A DNA stretch of 53,928 nt from Candidatus Marinamargulisbacteria bacterium SCGC AG-410-N11 (GCA_003265895.1 QFBS01000007.1:1-53928), one strand, 5' to 3'; counted from the stretch's first letter, positions 28,860 to 48,309 are shown. Numbers and translations are program-made. Notes: generated by a model not told the origin, from the letters alone.

Positions 28860-30920
28860 TTAAGTTGTAAGTATCATAACTAAAAAAGATATAATAATAA
28901 CACTTTTAATAAAGATATTAATACTAGGACCAAGTAAGTCCTTAAATGTATTACCTATTCGAGAGGCTGTATCGATCGTCGTATAGTTATTGCTATTATA
29001 CCCTCCGAAATGCCCCTTCTCGATGTAAAGTTTAGCATTTCCTAAAACATCACCTAAGTTAGCCCAATAAAAGTTTTGATTAATCCCAGTCAGAAAAACA
29101 CCTAAAACAATTCCAATTAAAAATGTAGGGCCAAACATATAACCAATTATAATAGGAGGTAAGGACATTATTATACCTGGTATAATTAAAGCATCCATAC
29201 AAAATCGGGAATGTTGATCAGTTGCAAGGATAATATCAGGATGAGCTTTGTTTTCAATTAAAAAAGCAATTCCTTTAATTTGACGATAAACTTCTTGGCT
29301 AGTAAACAAGAATAGCTCATTAAGCTTTTTTAGTAAAAGACCTGAAAAAATACAAGGAATCATAATACCAATTATAAGACCACAGTACCATTTTAAATTC
29401 ATTAATATTAATATATTTGAATTGATATTAGCCATTAAAATAAGAGAGAAAAAAATACTAATAGTAGAAATAGAGGCAGCTCCTGCAGCAAAGCCATTAC
29501 CTAATGATATTGCGGTCTGACCTAAGTAATTTAATTGTTTTATGTTATGTAAAATAGTTGATTTACCATCAAGATTTTCATCTAAGGTTAATTCTGAAAC
29601 TTTATAAGTAACAGAAACAAATGAATTGAAAATTTGAAGAACCATTATAGTGGTACTAAGAGATAGCATTCCTAGCGATGCAATGGTGACTCCATAAAAT
29701 CCCCCAAAGTATAATGATGGGAGAATAATAAGTAATAAATAAATCAGATAAAAAGAATTACTTTTTAGACCAATTACAAAGCTATTTAAAACGGTAACGG
29801 GTACGCCATGTTCAATTTGACGAGCAAGTCTTTTAGTTGGTTTGTAATTATTAGATGTTAAATATTCCGATGTAAAGGCAATAAGAATCGCACCTAATAA
29901 ACCGAAAAGATAATAATAAAAGGGTTGGAATAAGGCGGTTTGTCCAAAAATATTGATAACGGTTTGACTCATATTTAAATATTCAAATGCTAAGTAAGTA
30001 GTAATTGAACTAATTAAAATAGCTAAGTAAAGACTTTCTAATAAAATATTTTGAGTTTTTCTAAACTTAATTCGGATTGTTGTATAGATATATACAATAA
30101 AACTAGTAAATAAACTAATTAATATAATATAGAGAGGAACATTAAAAAAAATAAGACTTTCTGATTGAGAGTAGCTAGAGTTATCAAAAAAACTAAATGA
30201 AAATAAAAAGCAAGAAATTAAAGAAAAAATAAACGATCCTAAAATATCAGAGTTAAATCCTACTATTCTACATATATAGTCACCAACTAAATCAAGCAAT
30301 AGTGCCGGGTTGCGTTTATCAAATGCACTTATATCAGATGTTTCCAAATGAGACTGAACAGAAAGTTGAGCTCCTGATTTAAATAAACCTCCTCCAATTC
30401 GTAAGAAAAAAGAAGATAAAATAATGCCCACCCCATATCCTATAATACTAGAAGCTCCAAAAATAAGATACGATAACAATAATCCAGTAATTGTAAGTCC
30501 AATAATAAAAAAAGATAAAGCGCTACTAATTTGATATTGGAATAAAACCGCTCTATATAAATAAGTATTACTTTTTTCTAAAATTTTGGGAATAAAAGAT
30601 GGCGCTAAATATAAAATAACAAAAGAAATAACACATATAAATAGTCCCCCCATAGAGAATGCACCAATTTGTTGCCATAAAAATGATTTTTTAAAAATAA
30701 TTGAAAAGAAGAAAAGAATAATAGTTGTATATAAAATAATTTGAATAATACTGGAAAAAACACGTTTACTAAATGTTATTAATCCTTCATTAATCAAGCT
30801 GCAAAACTTTATAGCATCTTTATTAAATGAAGAAACTTGATAACTTTTATAAAATAAAAAAATACCAGTAATAACCATTAAAAAAGATGATGTCAAAAGT
30901 ATATAAAAAATAGTAAGCAT
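28860..30920 (-). CDS. membrane pyrophosphatase (HppA) homologue with degenerate active site
   Basis: The 686-residue protein has about 15-16 membrane helices and the layout of PPi-energised Na+/H+ pumps. Family landmarks are still readable: GGGLF (176-180), RNPALLLDLVGD (203-214), GNGFAAGAAS, EVYRQIKGIAFLIENKAHPD, WANLGDVLGNAKLYIE and FKDLLGPS (659-666). The substrate-site residues are largely replaced. The canonical KAADVGADLVGKVE reads SGAQLSVQSHLETS (182-195), the third Asp of DNVGDNVGD is Arg218, the DNAGG motif is absent, AWDNAK reads VLGNAK, and the two Asp of GDTVGDPFKD are lost while Lys660 and Asp661 remain. It is therefore probably not a working pyrophosphatase. It sits between recO and tpiA. 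Confidence 0.85.
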   Translation of the reverse strand: MLTIFYILLTSSFLMVITGIFLFYKSYQVSSFNKDAIKFCSLINEGLITFSKRVFSSIIQIILYTTIILFFFSIIFKKSFLWQQIGAFSMGGLFICVISFVILYLAPSFIPKILEKSNTYLYRAVLFQYQISSALSFFIIGLTITGLLLSYLIFGASSIIGYGVGIILSSFFLRIGGGLFKSGAQLSVQSHLETSDISAFDKRNPALLLDLVGDYICRIVGFNSDILGSFIFSLISCFLFSFSFFDNSSYSQSESLIFFNVPLYIILISLFTSFIVYIYTTIRIKFRKTQNILLESLYLAILISSITTYLAFEYLNMSQTVINIFGQTALFQPFYYYLFGLLGAILIAFTSEYLTSNNYKPTKRLARQIEHGVPVTVLNSFVIGLKSNSFYLIYLLLIILPSLYFGGFYGVTIASLGMLSLSTTIMVLQIFNSFVSVTYKVSELTLDENLDGKSTILHNIKQLNYLGQTAISLGNGFAAGAASISTISIFFSLILMANINSNILILMNLKWYCGLIIGIMIPCIFSGLLLKKLNELFLFTSQEVYRQIKGIAFLIENKAHPDIILATDQHSRFCMDALIIPGIIMSLPPIIIGYMFGPTFLIGIVLGVFLTGINQNFYWANLGDVLGNAKLYIEKGHFGGYNSNNYTTIDTASRIGNTFKDLLGPSINIFIKSVIIISFLVMILTT

Positions 30921-30980: not shown

Positions 30981-31535
30981 TTAAAAAACATATTCTTTAG
31001 TTATTTGGTGCATCGGCAACGGAATCTTTTTAGAACAATAATTTTCGAGTAAATTATGAAGGGTCTTGGCAGATATTGATGATGTCGGTGCTAAAATACC
31101 TTCATTATTAAGGATAGATTTTAGAAATTCATATTGAATAGTATTTGGACAGATATTTTTTTTATTAAGTCTAATTAAGGAATAAGATAGTAGATTAAAT
31201 AATTCGGGAGTAGGTTGTTTATAGTCTGTAATATTTTTTATAATATTAATAAAATAACTACTTAAACTAATTAGGTTGAAGTTTTGCTTTAAATAAGGGA
31301 AAGAATTTATTAATGACCATTCAGTTAGTAGCTGAAAGCTTTTTCCATTATAAATATTACATTGAATGATATTAGTTGGAACTAGACTCCCAATTAAACT
31401 AGATTTTTTTTTATAAACATTTTTAGCTAATAATGTAATTCTTCCTAAATTATGTGTCAATAATTCTAATCGTTGGTCTTTTTCAAAAAAGTTTTTTGAA
31501 GAAAATATGATTCCAGTTGTCTTAAGTAGTTTCAT
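30981..31535 (-). CDS. recO: DNA repair protein RecO (short form)
   Basis: RecO anneals DNA and loads RecA with RecF and RecR. The 184-residue protein begins with the family OB-fold (TTGIIFSSKNFFEKDQRLEL, LTHNLGRITLLAKN) and a helical C-terminal part. It is about 50 residues shorter than typical RecO, and the C-terminal zinc-finger Cys cluster is missing. The ATG overlaps the mgtE stop as ATGA. Identification rests on the N-terminal pattern; the C-terminal half is weakly conserved. Confidence 0.82.
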   Translation of the reverse strand: MKLLKTTGIIFSSKNFFEKDQRLELLTHNLGRITLLAKNVYKKKSSLIGSLVPTNIIQCNIYNGKSFQLLTEWSLINSFPYLKQNFNLISLSSYFINIIKNITDYKQPTPELFNLLSYSLIRLNKKNICPNTIQYEFLKSILNNEGILAPTSSISAKTLHNLLENYCSKKIPLPMHQITKEYVF

Positions 31536-32929
31536 AAAAAATAAAGTAATGAAAAAAAAGTAACCGAAAAATAAATAACTTGACCTAATAAATCAAGTGA
31601 AGTCGAAATTAAAGGCGCCGATGCAATAGCAGGGTCTATATTTATTTTTCTTAATAATATAGGAAGACTAGATCCGATTAAAGTAGCAATAATAATATTG
31701 GTTACTATTGAAATAAAAACGATAATCGAAAAAATAGTAGGCAGACCAGAAAAAAAATAATTAAATATAAATACTATAAAGCTAATAATGGATCCAATAA
31801 AAATACCGATACAAAATTCTCTTAAAATATAAAATAAACCTTTCTTATCTTTAATAAGGCCAGTGGATATGCCTCGAACAAAAATAGTAGCAGATTGATT
31901 TCCTACATTTCCTCCAAGTCCCATTATAATGGGTATAAAACTTAAACATAAAGATAACGGTAAAATATTGATAGATGGATGAATATTTGAATAATAATTA
32001 ATAATGAAACTAGCAAAAAGACCACCCGAAATGGTAAGTAATAACCAAGGAATACGGTAAAAAATAGAATAAAAAATAGATCCAGAAATTAATTTTTCTT
32101 CTTCAATTTCATAAGTTCCAGATAACTTTATAATATCTTCATTAGCTTCTTCAACTACAACATCAACAATATCATCAATAGTAATTAATCCGACGAGCGT
32201 GTTACTTTTATCAACTACTGGAATCGCTACAAAATCATATTTTTGAAATATTTTAGCAGCATCTTCTTGGTCTGTATCAATAGTTATTTTAACAGGAAAC
32301 GGTAAGCTAAACGTTTCAACCAAATCACTAGGTTTATTCATAAGTAAATTTCGTAAACTAATATAGCCTAATAACTTATTTTTATCAGAAACAATAAAAA
32401 TGTAAAAAGATATCTCTGAATCAGGAGGGTTTTGGCGTTTAATATGAGATAGAGCTTGTTTAATAGTAAGGTTTTCAGGAATGCATATGAACTCTGTTGT
32501 CATAATTGCACCTGCAGAATTTTCCTCGTATGATAATAAATGTTGAAGGTCTTCAGCTTCTTTATCTGGAAGAGCATCTAAAATTTCCTGGGCTTTATTA
32601 GCGTTAATTTCTTGAAGTTCTTCTATTAAATCGACGGCATCATCTGGTTCCATTTCTTCAATATAGTCAGCAGCTAGAGCTGTCCTAAGTTCAGAAATTA
32701 AAGAGACTTGTTCTTGTAATTGCATTTCTTCAAGCACATCTACTGCTAGTTCAGGTTTGAATTTACGAAAAAAAGTTAACCGTTGCTCAGTGTTTAGCTG
32801 TAAAAGAGCCTCAGAAATATCGGCATCATGAAATCGATTAAATAAACGAGAGTAATTTAATTTAGATTTACTATTAATAGCCTTTAATATTTTATTATAA
32901 AGTATAGAGTTTTTTTCTGAAGATTTCAT
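31532..32929 (-). CDS. mgtE: magnesium transporter MgtE
   Basis: MgtE is a dimeric Mg2+ channel gated by cytoplasmic Mg2+ sensing. The 465 residues show the full architecture: a helical N domain (EMEPDDAVDLIEELQ repeats), two CBS domains (LLGYISLRNLLMN; VAIPVVDKSNTLVGLITIDDIVDVV), a plug helix, and five membrane helices with GLGGNVGNQSATIFVRG and the pore Asp in TSLDLLGQV. No Shine-Dalgarno precedes the ATG; a TATAAT on the minus strand (32943-32948) would leave only a very short leader. It heads the mgtE-recO-pyrophosphatase homologue-tpiA-ppiA run. Confidence 0.95.
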   Translation of the reverse strand: MKSSEKNSILYNKILKAINSKSKLNYSRLFNRFHDADISEALLQLNTEQRLTFFRKFKPELAVDVLEEMQLQEQVSLISELRTALAADYIEEMEPDDAVDLIEELQEINANKAQEILDALPDKEAEDLQHLLSYEENSAGAIMTTEFICIPENLTIKQALSHIKRQNPPDSEISFYIFIVSDKNKLLGYISLRNLLMNKPSDLVETFSLPFPVKITIDTDQEDAAKIFQKYDFVAIPVVDKSNTLVGLITIDDIVDVVVEEANEDIIKLSGTYEIEEEKLISGSIFYSIFYRIPWLLLTISGGLFASFIINYYSNIHPSINILPLSLCLSFIPIIMGLGGNVGNQSATIFVRGISTGLIKDKKGLFYILREFCIGIFIGSIISFIVFIFNYFFSGLPTIFSIIVFISIVTNIIIATLIGSSLPILLRKINIDPAIASAPLISTSLDLLGQVIYFSVTFFSLLYFL

Positions 32930-33262
32930 AATATTGTATAAAATTATAACATTTATTTCTTATTTACTAAGAATCTTAATTAATCATCAGTTAAAAAGAA
33001 AATTTTAAAAATATGTTTAAATTGTATTTTTATAAGGTAGTCTATATATTTGAATACAATTAATTTGAAAAATTTATAGTTATATATAATGAAATATTTG
33101 ATCCCAAAATATTTGTTTGTTATTATAATCTATATTGTTAACATAGTAATATAAAAATAAAATAATTTAAAAAATATAAATGAATAGTCACTGAAAGGGG
33201 TGATAATGAAAATTATCTAATCAAAATAAATTTACATTCACAACTTTTACAAGGAGAAAATA
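32930..33262. other. 333-bp divergent intergenic region with long barrel-gene leader
   Basis: No gene is seen. The mgtE side has a minus-strand TATAAT close to its start codon. The barrel side has a plus-strand TATAAT at 33124-33129, which would give a leader of about 127 nt; its -35 is poor (TTGATC with a 20-bp spacer). The leader contains the GAAAGGGGTGATA element listed separately and a normal Shine-Dalgarno (aaggag) directly before the first barrel gene. Confidence 0.6.
33192..33205 (+). promoter_or_regulatory. conserved leader element (copy 1), extended Shine-Dalgarno-like
   Basis: TGAAAGGGGTGATA lies 58 nt before the start of the first barrel gene, upstream of its real ribosome site. 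The same 13-base core recurs in the leaders of two other barrel units. AAAGGGGTGAT equals the extended anti-Shine-Dalgarno complement AAAGGAGGTGAT with one A deleted. Confidence 0.6.
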
Positions 33263-33850
33263 ATGAAAAAAGCAATAGCTCTTATTAGTATTTTAGCAGC
33301 ACTTACAGTGCCAGTTTTAGCAAATACTAGCACAACAGGATTAGGGATTCACTTAGGACAATCATTTGGATATTCTCTAGATGAAAACGTTAAAAATTCA
33401 AATGCAAGATCATTTGATGTAACGTTTAATACTGCAGGTGGAACTACTTTTTATGTTCACAATGAATTTGGTGATTTTAATATTAGAGATGGTCAAGGCG
33501 GAAACGTAGTAGAGCACGTACAAGGTACTGAAACTGTACATGGTGTTGGTGTTTTAGCTAATGTTGCTAAAACAAATGTTAAATTGAACGTTTTAATTGG
33601 GTCTGCAACTACTGAAATAGCTGCTGGTCAAGGTGCTGCTAACATTGCAGGTGGTGCGGCATATTCTTCAACTAACCCAATTGCAGACTTAGGTGCTGGA
33701 TATCATGTTAACTTTGGTAATGCAAAATTAGCAATGGATATCGCTTACAGACATCATTTACTTAAAGATAATATTGATTTAAGAAATAATGAAAGATTAA
33801 ACAATAAAAGTGGAATTAGATTTTCAGCAACTGTAGGGTACGGTTTCTAA
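33263..33850 (+). CDS. small outer-membrane beta-barrel protein, paralogue 1
   Basis: The 195-residue protein has a signal peptide with cleavage after AALTVPVLA. The mature part is built of alternating Gly/aromatic strand sequence suited to an eight-stranded barrel, and it ends in GYGF with a terminal Phe recognised by the BAM machinery. It shares with its neighbours the blocks 'NPIADLGA', AYRHHLLK and NNKSGIRFSATVGYGF. No named family was recognised. It is the first gene of a two-gene unit ending in a terminator after paralogue 2. Ala, Val and Thr codons are mixed, unlike paralogues 2 and 3. Confidence 0.85.
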   Translation: MKKAIALISILAALTVPVLANTSTTGLGIHLGQSFGYSLDENVKNSNARSFDVTFNTAGGTTFYVHNEFGDFNIRDGQGGNVVEHVQGTETVHGVGVLANVAKTNVKLNVLIGSATTEIAAGQGAANIAGGAAYSSTNPIADLGAGYHVNFGNAKLAMDIAYRHHLLKDNIDLRNNERLNNKSGIRFSATVGYGF

Positions 33851-33874
33851 AATAATTTATAATATTTAAATAAG

Positions 33875-34479
33875 GGAGAAAATAAAATGAAAAAAAGTAT
33901 AGCATTAATCGCATTATTAGCAACGTTAGTAGCACCAGTAGTAGCAGCTACAGGAACAGGTATCGGAATAAATATCGGAACATCATATACATACAACTTA
34001 AAGTCTCAGTTTAAAAATGGACAAGCAACAAATATCGCATTAGAGTTTAATACAAGAGGCGGATCTACTTTCTACATTCAAAACGAGAATGGAACATGGA
34101 GAGGTGAATCTGGTAAATCAAATATTACAGGTTCTGAGAGTGTAACAGGATTAGGTGTTAGAGTACCAGTAGCTGACTCAGTAGGATTAGACGTGATGAT
34201 TGGAAACGCAACAACAAATTTCCAAGATGAAGCAGCAGTAGACAACGATAATTTCGGAACAGCAGCAACTGAAGAGTCATCAACAGATCCGATTGCAGAT
34301 TTAGGAGCATATGTAGAAAGAACATATGGAGATGTAAGTGTAGCAGGAACTGTATCATATAGACATCACATGTTAAGCAATGAGATTCAGTATGCTAAAC
34401 AAGGTGTTAATGGAAACACAGTATTAAACAACAAAAGTGGAGTTAGAGCAGGCGTAAGAATTTCTTACTCATTCTAATT
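33875..34479 (+). repeat. 605-bp direct repeat, copy A
   Basis: This segment, from the Shine-Dalgarno of paralogue 2 to two bases past its stop, is repeated at 34708-35312. By eye only two base differences were found, both synonymous (TTT/TTC and GTA/GTG). The flanking sequences on both sides are different. Confidence 0.93.
33887..34477 (+). CDS. small outer-membrane beta-barrel protein, paralogue 2 (identical to paralogue 3)
   Basis: The 196-residue protein has a signal peptide cleaved around APVVAA, strand-rich mature sequence with STDPIADLGAYVERTYG and SYRHHMLSNEI, and a C-terminal RISYSF ending in Phe. Its amino-acid sequence is identical to the product at 34720. Codon choice is distinctive: Ala is nearly always GCA, Val GTA, Thr ACA, and ATC is frequent, unlike the other barrels here. 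The start follows paralogue 1 by 36 bp with its own ggagaa site, and the unit ends in the hairpin at 34498. Confidence 0.87.
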   Translation: MKKSIALIALLATLVAPVVAATGTGIGINIGTSYTYNLKSQFKNGQATNIALEFNTRGGSTFYIQNENGTWRGESGKSNITGSESVTGLGVRVPVADSVGLDVMIGNATTNFQDEAAVDNDNFGTAATEESSTDPIADLGAYVERTYGDVSVAGTVSYRHHMLSNEIQYAKQGVNGNTVLNNKSGVRAGVRISYSF

Positions 34480-34497
34480 CTCTAAGCGTTGATCGTT

Positions 34498-34530
34498 AAA
34501 AAGCCGCACAAAATTGTGCGGCTTTTTTTT
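34498..34530 (+). terminator. Rho-independent terminator of barrel unit 1
   Basis: The stem AAGCCGCACAA/TTGTGCGGCTT with a two-base loop is followed by a run of nine or more T. It is G+C-rich in the stem against very A+T-rich surroundings, about 20 bp after the paralogue 2 stop. Confidence 0.92.
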
Positions 34531-34533
34531 TAT

Positions 34534-34563
34534 TTGATTATAGATATGTAAATTTGTTATGAT
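34534..34563 (+). promoter_or_regulatory. promoter of barrel unit 2
   Basis: TTGATT (34534-34539), an 18-bp spacer and TATGAT (34558-34563) begin directly after the T-run of the preceding terminator. The same boxes in the same place relative to a terminator occur before paralogue 4, which supports function. The predicted leader is about 150 nt. Confidence 0.65.
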
Positions 34564-34637
34564 GAAAAAAATTAAAATGTTTAATGCAATATATTTTGGG
34601 TATACTAAATTTAACCAAATATAAATTAATTAAAAAC

Positions 34638-34654
34638 TTTGAAAGGGGTGATAA
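34638..34654 (+). promoter_or_regulatory. conserved leader element (copy 2), extended Shine-Dalgarno-like
   Basis: TTTGAAAGGGGTGATAA in the leader of paralogue 3, about 66 nt before the start codon. The core matches copies 1 and 3 base for base while the flanking leader sequence differs. Confidence 0.6.
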
Positions 34655-34707
34655 TTTTAATTAAAAGTCAATAACTTAAAAAATCTATAAAATTATCAAA
34701 AACTTAA

Positions 34708-35312
34708 GGAGAAAATAAAATGAAAAAAAGTATAGCATTAATCGCATTATTAGCAACGTTAGTAGCACCAGTAGTAGCAGCTACAGGAACAGGTATCGGA
34801 ATAAATATCGGAACATCATATACATACAACTTAAAGTCTCAGTTTAAAAATGGACAAGCAACAAATATCGCATTAGAGTTCAATACAAGAGGCGGATCTA
34901 CTTTCTACATTCAAAACGAGAATGGAACATGGAGAGGTGAATCTGGTAAATCAAATATTACAGGTTCTGAGAGTGTAACAGGATTAGGTGTTAGAGTGCC
35001 AGTAGCTGACTCAGTAGGATTAGACGTGATGATTGGAAACGCAACAACAAATTTCCAAGATGAAGCAGCAGTAGACAACGATAATTTCGGAACAGCAGCA
35101 ACTGAAGAGTCATCAACAGATCCGATTGCAGATTTAGGAGCATATGTAGAAAGAACATATGGAGATGTAAGTGTAGCAGGAACTGTATCATATAGACATC
35201 ACATGTTAAGCAATGAGATTCAGTATGCTAAACAAGGTGTTAATGGAAACACAGTATTAAACAACAAAAGTGGAGTTAGAGCAGGCGTAAGAATTTCTTA
35301 CTCATTCTAATT
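34708..35312 (+). repeat. 605-bp direct repeat, copy B
   Basis: This is the second copy of the segment at 33875-34479, covering the ribosome site and the whole coding region of paralogue 3 but not the promoter, the distal leader or the terminator. Confidence 0.93.
34720..35310 (+). CDS. small outer-membrane beta-barrel protein, paralogue 3 (identical to paralogue 2)
   Basis: The 196-residue product is identical to that of 33887-34477, including the signal peptide and the terminal Phe. It forms a single-gene unit with its own promoter (TTGATT/TATGAT), long leader with the GAAAGGGGTGATA element, and terminator. The identical protein under a separate promoter suggests dose increase or independent control. 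The coding copy is nearly free of synonymous drift, so the duplication or a gene-conversion event is recent. Confidence 0.87.
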   Translation: MKKSIALIALLATLVAPVVAATGTGIGINIGTSYTYNLKSQFKNGQATNIALEFNTRGGSTFYIQNENGTWRGESGKSNITGSESVTGLGVRVPVADSVGLDVMIGNATTNFQDEAAVDNDNFGTAATEESSTDPIADLGAYVERTYGDVSVAGTVSYRHHMLSNEIQYAKQGVNGNTVLNNKSGVRAGVRISYSF

Positions 35313-35330
35313 TAATAAACCATAAATTAA

Positions 35331-35367
35331 AAAAACCACACACATTAATGCGTGTGGTTTTTTTTTA
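35331..35367 (+). terminator. Rho-independent terminator of barrel unit 2
   Basis: The stem AAACCACAC/GTGTGGTTT has a loop that contains CATTAATG, followed by a long T-run, about 20 bp after the paralogue 3 stop. The stem sequence differs from the unit 1 terminator, so it was not part of the duplicated segment. Confidence 0.9.
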
Positions 35368-35368
35368 T

Positions 35369-35397
35369 TTGATTACACATATTTTGTTTGATATGAT
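35369..35397 (+). promoter_or_regulatory. promoter of barrel unit 3
   Basis: TTGATT (35369-35374), a 17-bp spacer and TATGAT (35392-35397) directly follow the terminator T-run, the same arrangement as before unit 2. The predicted leader is about 130 nt. Confidence 0.65.
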
Positions 35398-35460
35398 TTA
35401 AGTATTAAATGAAAATTAACTCTTTAAATAAAGAGAAATATTTGAAAATTAGAATAAAAA

Positions 35461-35477
35461 TTTTGAAAGGGGTGATA
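35461..35477 (+). promoter_or_regulatory. conserved leader element (copy 3), extended Shine-Dalgarno-like
   Basis: TTTTGAAAGGGGTGATA lies 57 nt before the start of paralogue 4. Only this core, and not the neighbouring leader sequence, is conserved with copies 1 and 2. Confidence 0.6.
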
Positions 35478-35533
35478 TTTAAAAGTAAATATCTTTCTAT
35501 TTCTTAAAGAAAAAAAATCAAGGAGAATCGATA

Positions 35534-36112
35534 ATGAAAAAATCTTTAGCATTATTAAGTATATTATCCTGTCTAGCATTGCCAGTAGTAGCTAGTACAG
35601 GTATTGGTATTGGAATTGACTTAGCGAGCAATTACCAATATAACTTAGAAAAATCTTTCAAAAATTCAATGGCTAACTCTATATCTTTGAATTTTAAAAC
35701 TAACGGTGGAAATGTTTTCTATTTAAGAAACGAAACAGGTTCTTTTAGTGGTGAACACGGAAGAGCTGTAGCTACTGTTGATGAAGGTACTTTCGGATTA
35801 GGTGTTAGAGCTCCTATTTCTAAAAATATTGGTGTTAATGTTTTCTTAGGAAAAGCAAATACCAAGTTTACAAACGCTGCTAATAATGGAGACTCATTTG
35901 GTACTGCTGCATATTCAGAAACTAATCCTATAATTGACTTTGGTGCTTATGGTACAAAATCTTATGGTGATGTAAATGTAGGTCTAGATGTAACTTATAG
36001 ACATCATGCATTAAAAGAAGAAATTCAAAATACAAATGCTGGTGGACAAACAGAATTTATTAACAACAGACATGGTTTAAGAATTGGTCTTCGAGTAGGC
36101 TACGGATTCTAG
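35534..36112 (+). CDS. small outer-membrane beta-barrel protein, paralogue 4
   Basis: The 192-residue protein has a signal peptide cleaved near LPVVAS, strand-type mature sequence with TNPIIDFGAYGTKSYG and TYRHHALKEEI, and a C-terminal GLRVGYGF. It shares the family blocks with paralogues 1-3 at clearly diverged identity. Start follows aaggag. It is the first gene of a two-gene unit with its own promoter and leader element. Confidence 0.85.
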   Translation: MKKSLALLSILSCLALPVVASTGIGIGIDLASNYQYNLEKSFKNSMANSISLNFKTNGGNVFYLRNETGSFSGEHGRAVATVDEGTFGLGVRAPISKNIGVNVFLGKANTKFTNAANNGDSFGTAAYSETNPIIDFGAYGTKSYGDVNVGLDVTYRHHALKEEIQNTNAGGQTEFINNRHGLRIGLRVGYGF

Positions 36113-36153
36113 ATAATTGTTTAATTTAAAAATTAATTTTTAGGAGAGAAAAT

Positions 36154-36708
36154 ATGAAAAAAAGTATAGCTTTAATTGCAATTTTAGCTTGTCTTGTAAC
36201 ACCATTACTTGCAAGAACTGGTTATAGTATTCTATTGTCAGGTGCATACAATTATAATTTAACAACTGACATCGAAAATGGTAGCTCACAAGCTATCGGT
36301 GTACAGTTTTCTGCAAAAAATGGTATGAAACTATACATGCAAACAGAAATGGGAGCATTTAATTTACAAGATGGTGACACTCACCGATCAGGTAATGAAG
36401 TTGTTAATGGTGTAGGGTTAAGAATACCTTTAGGAAAACAATCTGGTTTAGGACTAAATGCTTTAATTGGAGCTACTCAGTTAACTACTAGAAATGCAGC
36501 AAACAATGCTGCTGATACAATTCAAACAGCTCCTTTAGCTGATCTAGGATTTTATCTTGAAAGAAAAGTATCTGACTTAACTATCAGTTTAGATGCTGGC
36601 GTTAGATTAACTAATCTAAGTCGAAGAATTAACAGTGATGCTGCTTTTAATAATATTAAAAACAAGCATGCTGTAAAAATTGCAGCTAGAGTTGCTTACG
36701 GTTTCTAA
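36154..36708 (+). CDS. small outer-membrane beta-barrel protein, paralogue 5
   Basis: The 184-residue protein has a signal peptide ending near TPLLAR and a C-terminal VAYGF. The family block is present in the form APLADLGFYLERK. The YRHH motif of paralogues 1-4 is replaced by VRLTNLSRRI, so this copy lacks the paired His. It follows paralogue 4 by 41 bp with its own taggaga ribosome site and is closed by the terminator at 36734. Confidence 0.82.
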   Translation: MKKSIALIAILACLVTPLLARTGYSILLSGAYNYNLTTDIENGSSQAIGVQFSAKNGMKLYMQTEMGAFNLQDGDTHRSGNEVVNGVGLRIPLGKQSGLGLNALIGATQLTTRNAANNAADTIQTAPLADLGFYLERKVSDLTISLDAGVRLTNLSRRINSDAAFNNIKNKHAVKIAARVAYGF

Positions 36709-36733
36709 ATATAATACAATTTAGAATTAATAC

Positions 36734-36768
36734 AAAAGGCTGTGCTTTATGCACAGCCTTTTTTTTTA
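36734..36768 (+). terminator. Rho-independent terminator of barrel unit 3
   Basis: The stem AAAGGCTGTGC/GCACAGCCTTT has a four-base loop and is followed by nine or more T, 25 bp after the paralogue 5 stop. Confidence 0.93.
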
Positions 36769-36829
36769 CTATAAAAAATTTATATTATCAGTTAAAATAT
36801 AATATATATTAAAATTTAAGGAAAAATTA

Positions 36830-37396
36830 ATGATTTTAAGAATTACTTGTTTATTTATATTTTTTATTATTAGTACTCAATCTATGGCAATTTCATTAAC
36901 TGGTGGACTACATTATGAATATTTATTAAAAAGTATAGAGAATAACTCTAAAGGTTATTTTATAAAATATAATCTTAAAAGAAATAATAAGCAAAGTTTA
37001 CATATATATACTGAGTATAATGTTAAGCAATTTTTTATTGACAGTACTAATATAAATACAAATTCATTATTCCTGGGAGCTGGAGTTACAACTAAGTTTA
37101 ATAATAACTGGGAATATACTTCAGTTTTCGGTATTTCTCATACACATCTTAATGGAGATTTTACTAATAATATAAGATCCAATGAAGAACAAATTACATC
37201 GCCTTTCATTCAATTAGGAGTAAATTACATTATACCAACTAAAACTAGAAGTAAGGCAAAGATTGGTGTTAATTTAAGAAGGCAGATCCAGTCTAAATCT
37301 ATTACAATTGATGATTCCACAAAAGTTGAACAATCAAGTTCTTATAAATTAAATGACGATACTAGCTTAATAATGCATGTATCTGCTGAATTCTAA
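36830..37396 (+). CDS. small outer-membrane beta-barrel protein, divergent paralogue 6
   Basis: The 188-residue protein has a signal peptide (LFIFFIISTQSMA), strand-like mature sequence and a C-terminal MHVSAEF with terminal Phe. It retains only the general frame of the cluster: a block SPFIQLGVNY in place of PIADLGAY and LRRQIQSKSI in place of the YRHH helix/strand. It has no leader element and no strong terminator after it, and lies 60 bp beyond the unit 3 terminator. Membership of the family is inferred from position, length and pattern. Confidence 0.72.
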   Translation: MILRITCLFIFFIISTQSMAISLTGGLHYEYLLKSIENNSKGYFIKYNLKRNNKQSLHIYTEYNVKQFFIDSTNINTNSLFLGAGVTTKFNNNWEYTSVFGISHTHLNGDFTNNIRSNEEQITSPFIQLGVNYIIPTKTRSKAKIGVNLRRQIQSKSITIDDSTKVEQSSSYKLNDDTSLIMHVSAEF

Positions 37397-37615
37397 AAAT
37401 TAAAATATTGATTTACATCATATAAAAATTTAAGGTACATATTCAAAACAATATATAATATTCTTGTTTGATAAACAAAGATTATACTTGTCCTATCCAG
37501 TAGACTATAATTTTAAATCTTTAAATATATTATAAAATAATATTATTACTAATTTAGTAGTTCAATTAAATACGTTATAATTATGTATCGATTTTAATAG
37601 GATACAGATATTATC

Positions 37616-39154
37616 TTATTCCCACTCTATTGTAGCAGGTGGTTTAGACGAAATATCAAATACTACACGATTAATATCTAAAACTTCATTAATAATTCGT
37701 GTTGATATTTCATTTAAAACATCATAAGGTAATTCCGCTACTTTTGCAGTCATCGCATCTTCAGATGTTACGGCTCTAATTGCAACAACGTGAGAGTAGG
37801 TTCTTTTGTCACCTTGTACACCAACAGATTTAATTGGTAATAATACCGCAAATGCTTGCCAAATACTTCGATATAAGCCACGCTTTTTAATTACATCTGT
37901 TACAATAGCATCAGCATCTTGCAGTACTCTAACACGGTCAGGGGTTACTTCTCCTATAATTCTAATAGCAAGGCCAGGTCCAGGAAATGGTTGTCTAAAA
38001 ATTAATTCTTCTGGAATATCTAATTCTAACCCAACTTTACGTACTTCATCTTTAAATAGTTTATTAAGTGGTTCTATAATCTTAAACTTTATGTCTTTAG
38101 GTAGCCCACCTACATTATGATGACTTTTTATAGTAGTAGCTGCTAATGAAACATCTTTATTTCCGGCTGATTCTATAACATCAGGATATAGTGTTCCTTG
38201 AGCCAAATATGGGTATTCACTATTTAATTCCTCTGCTTTTTCTTCAAAAACTCTGATAAACTCTTCTCCAATTTTTTTTCGTTTTTCTTCAGGGTCTGTA
38301 ACACCTTTAATTTTATCGAAGAATCGTTGTCTTGCATCGACATATATAAGATCTATTTTAAAAAACTTTGTAAATAGTTCTTTAATACGTTCACCTTCAT
38401 TTTTTCTCATAAAACCTTGATCTATAAACACGCAAGTTAAATTCTTTCCAATCGCTTTTTTGAGTAATGCTGCGACAGTAGTAGAATCTACACCTCCTGA
38501 CAAAGCACATAATACTCGACTATTATCTACTTCTCTTTGAATATTATTAAGAGATGAGTTAATAAAAGATTTTGGAGTCCATTCAGCCTTACATTTGCAT
38601 ATATTTAAAATAAAATTATTAATTAAATCTTTACCTTTATGTGTATGGGTAACCTCAGGATGAAATTGTATACCAAAGATCTTCTTTTCTTTATTACCCA
38701 TACTTGCAATAGGGCAATTTTCTGTATGACCTAATCGTTGAAAGCCTTCAGGCATTCTCACAACTTTATCGCCATGGCTCATCCATATTGACATTTCAAG
38801 CCATAAACCTTCGAACAAGTCAAAATTATTATCTATATAAAAGTTAGAATGGCCATATTCATGTTTGTCGCCCTTAATAACTTCTCCGCCTAGTTCTAAA
38901 GCAAGAAGTTGCATTCCATAGCAAATTCCAAGAATAGGAATATTTGAATCGTATATATTCTTATCACATCTTGGTGAGTTATTTTCAAATACTGAGGAAG
39001 GGCCACCAGATAATATAATTCCTTTATAATTTTTATCTTTAATATCACTTAAAGATGTTGTATGAGGTAATACTTCACAATAAACATTAGATTCTCTAAT
39101 ATTCTTAGCTATTAATTTTGTATATTGTGATCCAAAGTCTAGTATAGCTATCAT
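37616..39154 (-). CDS. guaA: GMP synthase (glutamine-hydrolysing)
   Basis: GuaA aminates XMP to GMP. The 512 residues comprise a class I glutamine amidotransferase domain (SGGPSSVFE, nucleophile Cys in LGICYGMQLLAL, His-Glu in IQFHPEVTHT), the ATP-pyrophosphatase P-loop CALSGGVDSTTVAALL, and the dimerisation domain (RQPFPGPGLAIRIIGEV) ending in KPPATIEWE. It follows guaB by 2 bp, so the two GMP-specific steps are one operon. Confidence 0.97.
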   Translation of the reverse strand: MIAILDFGSQYTKLIAKNIRESNVYCEVLPHTTSLSDIKDKNYKGIILSGGPSSVFENNSPRCDKNIYDSNIPILGICYGMQLLALELGGEVIKGDKHEYGHSNFYIDNNFDLFEGLWLEMSIWMSHGDKVVRMPEGFQRLGHTENCPIASMGNKEKKIFGIQFHPEVTHTHKGKDLINNFILNICKCKAEWTPKSFINSSLNNIQREVDNSRVLCALSGGVDSTTVAALLKKAIGKNLTCVFIDQGFMRKNEGERIKELFTKFFKIDLIYVDARQRFFDKIKGVTDPEEKRKKIGEEFIRVFEEKAEELNSEYPYLAQGTLYPDVIESAGNKDVSLAATTIKSHHNVGGLPKDIKFKIIEPLNKLFKDEVRKVGLELDIPEELIFRQPFPGPGLAIRIIGEVTPDRVRVLQDADAIVTDVIKKRGLYRSIWQAFAVLLPIKSVGVQGDKRTYSHVVAIRAVTSEDAMTAKVAELPYDVLNEISTRIINEVLDINRVVFDISSKPPATIEWE

Positions 39155-45198: not shown

Positions 45199-48100
45199 AT
45201 GTTTTTAAAAAGGTTTTTTGTTTTTCTTTTAGTATTAACATTATTCTTTGTTAATAAGCTGTGTATATTGGGAGATGATTTAGTATTTAATTTAAAGCCA
45301 GACCCAGTAATGATAGGTCAAAAATTACATGTTTCTTTAATTTCTGATGTAGAGTTAAATGGCGTAGATATTGAAATATCAAATGGAAAGAAAATTAAGT
45401 TAAAGAAAGTAAATGATAAACTATTTAATTTTAACTACAAAATAGGTCTCAATGAAAAACCTGGAAATTATAACGTGTCAATTATTTTATCGACAACAGA
45501 TGGCCAAAAATTAAAACTACCTAATACATCTTTTCAAGTTATTAAAAAGCCAACATTAAGTAAGTCATCCAAAAGTGTAGAAGTTAATACAAAGAGTTTC
45601 TTTGATAATTCCAAAACGTCTAATTTAAACATAAAAATTGATGAACTTGAGCAAAATGTTGATAACTTGGAACAAGAAAAGCAAAATTTAAAAAAGAAAA
45701 TAAAAAATTTAAAAAATAATATCAATAATATGAAGAAAAAATTAGCTAACGAAGATTTAATTAAGCAAAAAGAGGAAGAGTTAAAAAGATTAGAGCAGCA
45801 GTTAAAGAAGCAGCAAGAAGAATTAGCAAAACAATTAGCAAATTTAAAAAATAAATTAAAAGATTTAAATGCAGAGAAAGAAAGAATTAAAAAGCAGTCG
45901 GAATTACTTTCTTCATTAGAGTCAAAGTTAAAAGATCAAAAGTCTAACTTAGATTTAAAATCTAAGGAACTTACTAAGAAGAGTTTTTTGGCAGAAGAAA
46001 AAGAAAACTACTTATATAATAAACAAACAATCTCAGAACAGAGAGAGAGTAACATTACAAAAAAAGAAAAGGCCTTAGTATTGTTAGAACAGGAAATTTC
46101 ATCAAAAAATAATGAGTTAGAAAGTATTAAGGCGAAACTAATAACACAACAAGGAAATTTAGAAAATTCAAAACAGCAAATCGAAAATGAAAAAAATGAA
46201 ATTAGTAAAGAGAAAATTTATTTAGAACAAGTATCGGAAGGTATCAAGAGTGAACAAAGTAAATTAGTAGAGCTAACCTTAGAGTTAAAAGAAAAGCAAG
46301 ACGAATTTGAACAAGTAAAAGTTGCAAATATGTTAGAAACGGAAAAGAAAGAATCCGCAATTTTAGAAAAACAAAATCAATTAGATGGACTACAAATATT
46401 AATGGCGAATGCTAGTGATAATTTAAAGAAATTAGAATTTGAACAACAAAATAAAAGTATTGAGTTAGAAGAGAGAGTCAAAAATTTTGAGATACAAAAA
46501 GTTAAGTTCGAAAAAAATATGAATACGATTTCAAAACAAAAACAATTAATTGTAAATTTAGAAAAAGAGTTACAAATTAAATATGATTTATTAAAGTCTC
46601 TAAATAGTTGGATTCAGAATCAAATAGGAGATTTGAAATTAGAGTATAAGAAAAATAATAAGCAAAACTCTGATTATTTAAATAAGTTTGATGAAAAATT
46701 TCAGCAACTAGAAGGGTTAACACGTTTAATAGAAAATAGAGCTCAAAACTTAGAGTCATATAACAAAGACCTTCAAAGCGAAACAATTTTAAAGGATTTT
46801 GAAATAGAGTCATTAAAAAGACCACATTATAGGTATGCTTTTTCACCATTTTTAGGAATGAGAGGGGTATCTAGCAGTTCTCAAAATGGAGCTGAGGGTG
46901 GGTTAAGATTAGTTACTTTTTATAATAAAATGTTTTCGTTTCAAGGAGGAGTCTCTTTATTTAGTACACAAAAAAAGGAGTCTAGTTTAATTAAGCAACA
47001 GGAACATATTTTATATAATATATCTACATTATATGATTTTAACCCAGGGGAAAAAGCACGCTTTTATTTATTAGGAGGGATAGAGGGTGCTTTAAATGGA
47101 AACCGAAAAAAAATTGGATTATGTTCTGGGGTTGGGTTTAAGTATTTTATCAACCCAAAAATAGTAACTCGATTTGAAATAAAGTATAGTAATGAATTAT
47201 CTGCTACGATTGGTTTTGAAAATCATATTTCGCCTATTTTTAATAAAATTAAGAATAAGCTTACACAAGAAAAAATTAAAACTATTTCAGAAGTAGATCA
47301 GTTTTCTTCAAGAAATTTAGAAGGTATAATATCAGTTCCAGAATCAGTTTTAATTTTTAAGAAGAATAATGTTAAGTTGCAAGATACATTACAACACTGG
47401 TCTTATTTAGATGTTCAGTCTGTCTTAAATTTAGGTTTAATGGATCCCAAAGTTATTGGCTCAGAAAGATTATTTGATATTAACTCGTCAATAAATAAGG
47501 CTGATTGTTCTAAAATATTAAGTCGTTTAGCCAATATTGAAGATTTATTAGTAGTGAAGCAGGTACCTATTTCAATTAGTTTTGTAGGTGAGAATAGTCA
47601 AAATAATTTAATATCAGTATTAATTCTTGATTCTGAAAACAATATTATTAAAACATTAGCTAAAAATGAAAGAGTTTTATCTAATAAGGTAAAGTATATA
47701 TGGAAATTAGATCAAAAGAGTTTAAATACAGGTAAATATAGAGTGGTACTTAATGTAAGCTCTAATTTATTAAAAGTTGATGAAAATAAAAAATATACGA
47801 TTAGTGAAAATAGTATTTTGAGTGAAGTTAAAACAATAGAGGTAAAAGAAGTAAATAAGCCATCTTTATCTTCTGTATTTTCAAATCCTGGGTTTTCTGA
47901 TATTCCAAAAGATTTTCCAGGTAGTGAATATATTTTTGAATCAGTTAAACTAGGTATTTTTCAAAAACCAATTATAAAGATTAATAAGAACGACTCGATA
48001 AGTTTTAATCCATATGAAGAAATGAAAAGAGTAGATTTTATGGTTTGTGTTACAAAAGTATTACTTCACTTTGGAGCTTCCTTAAAGCCGGTTAAAGTAG

Positions 48101-48309
48101 ATTTTACGCCATACAAAGATTGGAATACTATAAATAATGATAAAATGGCATATTTAACAACATATATAGTGGAGCTAGGGTATGGAGGAGATGATCAAAA
48201 ACGTTTAAGACCAAATGATTTAATAACACGAGCTGAAGTTGCTACCATTATAAATAGAGTGTTAAAGTGGAAAGATAATAAGCAGTTGATTTCTATTAGT
48301 CAGAATTAG
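45199..48309 (+). CDS. coiled-coil / beta-barrel / SLH-domain envelope protein
   Basis: The 1036-residue protein has a signal sequence (FFVFLLVLTLFFVNKL). An Ig-like N-terminal domain (about 28-118) is followed by a very long coiled coil rich in Lys, Glu and Gln (about 143-540). A strand-rich segment (about 541-685) starts YRYAFSPFLGMRG and contains FYLLGGIEGALNG and FKYFINPKIVTRFEI, like a small outer-membrane barrel. The end holds an SLH-like repeat (about 725-785, LQDTLQHWSYLDVQSVLNLG), a FlgD/FLN-like beta domain (about 788-880), and two further SLH repeats (from about 895 and 966: SDIPKDFPGSEYIFESVKLG; RLRPNDLITRAEVATIINRV). A strong Shine-Dalgarno precedes the ATG. It probably bridges envelope layers. 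Confidence 0.8.
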   Translation: MFLKRFFVFLLVLTLFFVNKLCILGDDLVFNLKPDPVMIGQKLHVSLISDVELNGVDIEISNGKKIKLKKVNDKLFNFNYKIGLNEKPGNYNVSIILSTTDGQKLKLPNTSFQVIKKPTLSKSSKSVEVNTKSFFDNSKTSNLNIKIDELEQNVDNLEQEKQNLKKKIKNLKNNINNMKKKLANEDLIKQKEEELKRLEQQLKKQQEELAKQLANLKNKLKDLNAEKERIKKQSELLSSLESKLKDQKSNLDLKSKELTKKSFLAEEKENYLYNKQTISEQRESNITKKEKALVLLEQEISSKNNELESIKAKLITQQGNLENSKQQIENEKNEISKEKIYLEQVSEGIKSEQSKLVELTLELKEKQDEFEQVKVANMLETEKKESAILEKQNQLDGLQILMANASDNLKKLEFEQQNKSIELEERVKNFEIQKVKFEKNMNTISKQKQLIVNLEKELQIKYDLLKSLNSWIQNQIGDLKLEYKKNNKQNSDYLNKFDEKFQQLEGLTRLIENRAQNLESYNKDLQSETILKDFEIESLKRPHYRYAFSPFLGMRGVSSSSQNGAEGGLRLVTFYNKMFSFQGGVSLFSTQKKESSLIKQQEHILYNISTLYDFNPGEKARFYLLGGIEGALNGNRKKIGLCSGVGFKYFINPKIVTRFEIKYSNELSATIGFENHISPIFNKIKNKLTQEKIKTISEVDQFSSRNLEGIISVPESVLIFKKNNVKLQDTLQHWSYLDVQSVLNLGLMDPKVIGSERLFDINSSINKADCSKILSRLANIEDLLVVKQVPISISFVGENSQNNLISVLILDSENNIIKTLAKNERVLSNKVKYIWKLDQKSLNTGKYRVVLNVSSNLLKVDENKKYTISENSILSEVKTIEVKEVNKPSLSSVFSNPGFSDIPKDFPGSEYIFESVKLGIFQKPIIKINKNDSISFNPYEEMKRVDFMVCVTKVLLHFGASLKPVKVDFTPYKDWNTINNDKMAYLTTYIVELGYGGDDQKRLRPNDLITRAEVATIINRVLKWKDNKQLISISQN

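Follow-up and report, generated by a model that had tools for sequence, protein, structure and literature searches.

Why would one bacterium carry six genes for small secreted proteins side by side, and what do the leaders in front of them do? The question is raised by a locus of Candidatus Marinamargulisbacteria bacterium SCGC AG-410-N11, found in a stretch of 53,928 nucleotides (QFBS01000007.1:1-53928; hereafter the window) which is contig 50 of a draft genome (1,507,351 bases, 52 contigs, 56% complete). The six genes, P1 to P6, occupy positions 33263-37396 on the + strand, and three of the units into which they are arranged carry, far upstream of the start codon, the same 13-nucleotide element resembling a Shine-Dalgarno (SD) sequence, GAAAGGGGTGATA. 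The explanation that we favor, and regard as somewhat probable when taken whole, is that of a dosage array of abundant small outer-membrane barrels, the messages of which would bear ribosome-docking leaders.

Six predicted small barrels in three terminated units and one solitary gene

An earlier inspection of the DNA alone (hereafter the sequence-only reading) had described a six-gene family at this locus, and six open reading frames (ORFs) were indeed found at these positions, encoding products of 184-196 amino acids (AA). The identity to P2 is 45% for P1, 48% for P4 and 37% for P5, while P2 and P3 are 100% identical; thus the "paralogues 1-4" of that reading are related and have a YRHH motif in common, but represent three distinct proteins. 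P6 shares 19% identity with P2. Against a profile of P1-P5 it ranked 1 of 1001 (itself plus 1000 of its own shuffles, E ~0.001) and its pairwise shuffle z values were 3.5-5.6, making its membership of the family likely. By sequence comparison, P1-P5 are clear paralogues and P6 is a distant but significant relative.

A cleavable-looking signal peptide with Ala at position -1 and a C-terminal Phe were read directly in all six proteins, the first four of which had been credited with these features, and fit Sec-dependent secretion and the C-terminal aromatic signal of the barrel assembly machinery (BAM). The YRHH motif is limited to P1-P4, in agreement with the proposed loss of the paired His in P5 and P6. 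A "PIADLGA" block had been assigned to the first four proteins; it is exact in P1-P3, with PIIDFGA in P4 and PLADLGF in P5. All copies have intact ORFs, each with a separate ribosome-binding site, and a leader of its own precedes three of them.

Structure models of P2 and P6 were built with AlphaFold, using the paralogue alignment. Both display eight strands, with pLDDT (predicted local distance difference test) values of 73 and 73.8, respectively, and when compared with the PDB by Foldseek their best matches were the OmpA transmembrane domain, Ail, OmpX and NspA, with a probability of 1.00 and 9-15% identity. The earlier suggestion of small eight-stranded outer-membrane beta-barrels was thus borne out at the level of prediction. 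The signal peptides and the C-terminal Phe agree with the models, so that the assignment as small barrels, predicted to reside in the outer membrane, is well supported. Like those four proteins, the array members are predicted to have eight strands joined by short turns at one end and by longer loops at the opposite end, and they share a signal peptide and a terminal Phe; they differ from them by the low identity, the lack of a sequence family match, the six tandem copies and the lack of a known ligand.

No match above cut-off was obtained for P1-P6 in Pfam, NCBIfam, PHROGs or PDB sequences, in line with the earlier failure to recognize a named family; the sole match to Pfam OMP_b-brl (PF13505) was that of P6, at 16.8 bits (E 0.008), below the curated cut-off of 28.7 bits. 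Scanning GTDB r220 and IMG/VR with the family alignment returned no relative, nor did a tblastn search of phages and plasmids. The family profile was run over 74 genomes of the phylum and matched the window's own genome alone; searches of 27 and 56 genomes agreed. As far as these searches reach the array is lineage-specific, the lineage being represented by one genome, and the barrels, though of a known fold, constitute a new orphan family.

The genes form the units (P1+P2), (P3), (P4+P5) and P6, as had been anticipated, and three strong terminators stand between them. Terminator-like sites numbered 10 against 1.1 expected, and none was detected 3' of P6. Each of the three leader-bearing units has a candidate promoter, located by consensus match; promoter-like sites were no more frequent than in shuffled sequence.

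A remote SD-like element in the leaders

The 13-mer GAAAGGGGTGATA occurs exactly three times in the 1,507,351 bases of the genome, all three in leaders of the array, and not once on the other strand; those of its inexact matches elsewhere that were read lay mostly within other genes. The 3' region of the genome's own 16S rRNA is GGATCACCTCCTTTCT, with which GAAAGGGGTGATA pairs as GAAAGG/GGTGAT with one bulged base, at -17.9 kcal/mol. No other 20-mer of the window, sampled at 5-nt steps over both strands, paired more strongly, while the SD sequences proper of the six genes pair with the 16S tail at -5 to -9 kcal/mol. Each of the three leaders thus holds a strong SD-like sequence remote from the start codon, which is what characterizes elements of the STAB-SD type.

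A related sequence, the STAB-SD-type GAAAGGAGG, lies 107-144 nt upstream of a single barrel-like gene in three relatives (L070 at 2111, - strand; L071 at 1391, + strand; L072 at 2076, - strand). When 234 kb of DNA of the class, a sample enriched for barrel loci, was surveyed for GAAAGGAGG, GAAAGGGGTG and AAAGGAGGTGA, these were found only upstream of the array genes, upstream of the barrel-like gene in those three loci, and as 16S antisense. Judged by pairing energy alone, a remote site at -16 or better is present in 6 of 17 leaders of barrel or barrel-like genes against 2 of 124 other genes (Fisher p 3e-5, a value that is optimistic, since the six positive leaders come from three lineages).

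Other features of the leaders were considered and set aside. No conserved upstream ORF was seen: MKII could be encoded in unit 1, an ATG at that place is lacking in units 2 and 3, and in the relatives an ATG overlapping GAAAGGAGG is frame-shifted between L071 and L072 (all by direct reading). A conserved hairpin after the 13-mer (GATAAT/ATTATC, GATATTTA/TAAATATC) looked suggestive by eye, although the folding z was only -0.8 to -2.4 and therefore it is not claimed. Rfam searched at a lax E-value gave only sub-gathering matches on the leaders, none of them at the element.

Two described systems offer a guide to what the element may do. In cry3A of Bacillus thuringiensis the STAB-SD protects the mRNA independently of translation, by an SD sequence which blocks RNase J1, and elements of this type have been described mainly from Gram-positive bacteria (PMC4113751). 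As in cry3A, the array element is an SD-like leader sequence that lies well ahead of the start codon, can pair with the 3' end of the 16S rRNA and is not placed for initiation; the cry3A message starts at -129, and the elements stand at 69-79 nt in the array and at 107-144 nt (GAAAGGAGG) in the relatives. Unlike cry3A, the array has GAAAGGGGTGAT, pairing over 12 positions with one bulge, it bears the element on outer-membrane protein genes, and RNase J was not found in its order. In Escherichia coli ompA, a strong SD stabilizes the message without a start codon and not via translation (PMC7509114). The likeness here is a long leader on the message of an eight-stranded outer-membrane protein, abundant in E. 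coli and presumably so in the array, where a strong SD may likewise confer stability; the difference is that ompA uses its own SD and a 5' hairpin, while the array has a second, remote SD-like site.

In the account that we propose, each protein would be Sec-secreted and folded by BAM into an eight-stranded barrel of the OmpX/OmpA type, and the array would provide a high dosage of near-equivalent major small outer-membrane barrels, with a structural or passive function suggested for them. Three units, each with its own putative promoter and terminator, would be transcribed with a leader of 130-150 nt carrying the remote GAAAGGGGTGATA. Not being placed for translation start, this element would most likely dock the 30S subunit, and the docked subunit could protect the message or preload ribosomes, as in the STAB-SD of cry3A or the ompA leader of E. 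coli. The element would thereby probably keep the array messages abundant, in keeping with the high expression that we suspect. If the order is without RNase J, it would counter some other 5'-dependent nuclease or serve as a standby site. Gene conversion would keep P2 and P3 identical.

The P2/P3 tract and the mgtE-guaA slot

Coordinates of the array and its signals are collected in Table 1. The ORFs of P2 and P3 differ at two synonymous bases, and the near-identical tract runs from 12 bases before the ATG to 2 bases past the stop, with both flanks diverging at once. Near-identical ORFs between abruptly diverging flanks point to gene conversion as the probable cause. Moreover, A-ending codons at fourfold sites reach 0.76 in P2, compared with 0.39 when the other paralogues are pooled (p 1e-8); the remaining window genes average 0.41 and do not exceed 0.64. 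This bias suggests that the P2/P3 allele may have been imported or may be under separate codon selection.

Table 1. Positions of the genes, leader elements and transcription signals of the array, counted from the first base of the window.
Feature	Position	Strand	Description	Basis
P1	33263..33850	+	195 AA secreted small barrel (predicted), unit 1 first gene	ORF; YRHH, C-terminal F
P2	33887..34477	+	196 AA small barrel (predicted), unit 1 second gene	ORF; eight-stranded model; Foldseek OmpA/NspA/Ail/OmpX
P3	34720..35310	+	unit 2, alone; protein identical to P2	ORF; two synonymous differences from P2
P4	35534..36112	+	192 AA small barrel (predicted), unit 3 first gene	ORF; paralogue of P2
P5	36154..36708	+	184 AA small barrel (predicted) without YRHH, unit 3 second gene	ORF; paralogue of P2
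P6	36830..37396	+	188 AA divergent small barrel (predicted), solitary	ORF; profile rank; model; OmpA/Ail/OmpX matches
Leader element GAAAGGGGTGATA, unit 1	33193..33205	+	70 nt before ATG; remote SD-like	
Leader element GAAAGGGGTGATA, unit 2	34641..34653	+	79 nt before ATG	
Leader element GAAAGGGGTGATA, unit 3	35465..35477	+	69 nt before ATG	
Terminator, unit 1	34498..34527	+		13-pair stem then T run
Terminator, unit 2	35329..35364	+		terminator prediction
Terminator, unit 3	36734..36762	+		12-pair stem then T run
Candidate promoter, unit 1	33098..33126	+	TTGATC-17-TATTAT, TG before -10	consensus match only
Candidate promoter, unit 2	34534..34563	+	TTGATT-18-TATGAT	position after terminator same as in unit 3
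Candidate promoter, unit 3	35369..35397	+	TTGATT-17-TATGAT	
Near-identical tract	33875..34479 and 34708..35312	+	2 differences in 605 bp	

The array sits between mgtE and guaA (the mgtE/recO to guaA interval of the window is 31532-39154). Judged by GuaA, the closest named genome is that of a marine MAG, Actinomycetota NAT535 (70%). In relatives, a single gene for a secreted product of 155-174 AA, divergently placed, lies in the interval from mgtE, or recO, to guaA. This single barrel-like gene gave one match in each of 14 genomes of the class, beside mgtE, recO or guaA in most but not all of them, with sub-threshold OMP_b-brl matches in 2 of 13; one relative (G003) has no gene in the slot, which measures only ~118 nt. 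Across the class, the mgtE/recO-guaA interval thus forms a conserved slot in which a small secreted barrel-like gene resides. The single gene resembles the array by its place and orientation, its signal peptide, the sub-threshold OMP_b-brl matches and, in three cases, an SD-like leader, but it is present in one copy instead of six and has no detectable homology to P1-P6: hhalign gave a probability of 5.7 and no profile match rose above shuffles, with scattered z values up to 4.8 for P5. Sharing the slot without a sequence link, the array would be either an expansion that has diverged too far to be recognized or a replacement in situ.

Some neighboring genes were recorded as well. The protein encoded at 28860-30920 (- strand) is a membrane pyrophosphatase homologue scoring at most 275 bits against NCBIfam cut-offs of at least 546; by eye its Asp-rich catalytic motifs are absent, homologues adjoining recO-mgtE in G001, G003 and G005 look similar, and it is possibly a pseudoenzyme, judging from the sequence. 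A 1036 AA protein (45199-48309, + strand) has a sub-threshold OMP_b-brl match at residues 562-666 and weak SMC-like matches. Elsewhere, locus L024 (G000:C4) encodes a protein with ankyrin-like repeats, as seen by eye, a type often found in host-associated bacteria.

Alternative readings and meaning of the leader

Several observations weigh against the account of barrels with docking leaders. The models of P2 and P6 are of medium confidence (pLDDT 73-74) and come from shallow alignments. With a 16S tail two bases shorter at the 3' end, GAAAGGGGTGATA pairs at only -14.2 and loses its first rank among the window sites, so the strength of the element depends on the mature 16S 3' end. The 17 leaders compared are not independent, three being from one genome and two from one genus, and the strong element is missing in most of the 13 single-copy relatives. 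RNase J (TIGR00649) had no match in the window's genome, the draft being 56% complete, or in six relatives of the order, leaving a stabilizer mechanism unproven; it was above cut-off in G007, G008, G011 and G015, of which G011 and G015 carry GAAAGGAGG. Finally, the element could be a DNA site, that is, an activator box or part of a promoter instead of an RNA element. Three exact copies in the three promoter regions of one regulon would fit an operator, and TTGAAA and GATAAT within the 13-mer resemble promoter hexamers by direct reading; yet in all three units the element lies ~60-70 nt downstream of equivalently placed promoter-like sites, both of its halves are complementary to the 3' end of this genome's 16S rRNA, and leaders of another gene family in relatives again contain the GAAAGGAGG form. 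We consider a DNA site rather unlikely, although it deserves more weight than the other alternatives.

Those alternatives concern the array itself. The fatty-acid and glycerol metabolism encoded nearby (FadI/FadJ/FadE-like and glycerol-3-phosphate dehydrogenase genes lie in the window) could be served by OmpW-like uptake channels, and one of the highest TM-scores of P2 is to OmpW (8qxp, 0.59/0.64); but the nearest proteins by E-value are OmpA, Ail, NspA and OmpX, a FadL-like hatch or plug domain is absent and there is no operon link to the fad genes, which makes this use of the barrels unlikely. Even less probable, in our opinion, is the likeness to antigenic- or receptor-variation loci, with loop-variable surface proteins diversified under host or phage selection, that the sequence-only reading had drawn. 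The local expansion itself stands, and an array of divergent surface barrels confined to one lineage, with signs of gene conversion, would suit such a locus. The "variable loops" did not hold up, however: the outer loops have a mean pairwise identity of 0.32 and the strands one of 0.37, so that loops are scarcely more divergent and show no hypervariability; moreover, conversion has probably homogenized P2 and P3, all ORFs are intact and no silent partial cassettes were seen. A similarly low probability is given to an assembly artefact behind the P2/P3 identity, one copy having been pasted twice from short metagenomic reads. Near-identical repeats of 600 bp are difficult to resolve with short reads, and the draft genome, in 52 contigs, is incomplete; against this, the copies differ at two positions as well as in their flanks and terminators, and a single contig bridges the array.

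An orphan family that adopts a well-known fold is nothing unusual in an uncultured lineage; the leader is the less ordinary part: an exact, locus-exclusive motif of the STAB-SD type on outer-membrane protein genes. Should the organism be Candidatus Ruthmannia eludens or closely related to it, the barrels would be candidates for the surface proteins of a placozoan symbiont that reportedly sheds membrane vesicles. As a more tentative and rather doubtful extension of the favored account, a remote SD-type docking leader may mark the small barrel genes of the class and control message life or translation without RNase J, having persisted or reappeared on two barrel families that share the slot but look unrelated. 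The presence of GAAAGGGGTGATA here and of its GAAAGGAGG form on the relatives' barrel-like gene suggests a general means by which such messages are maintained at high levels.

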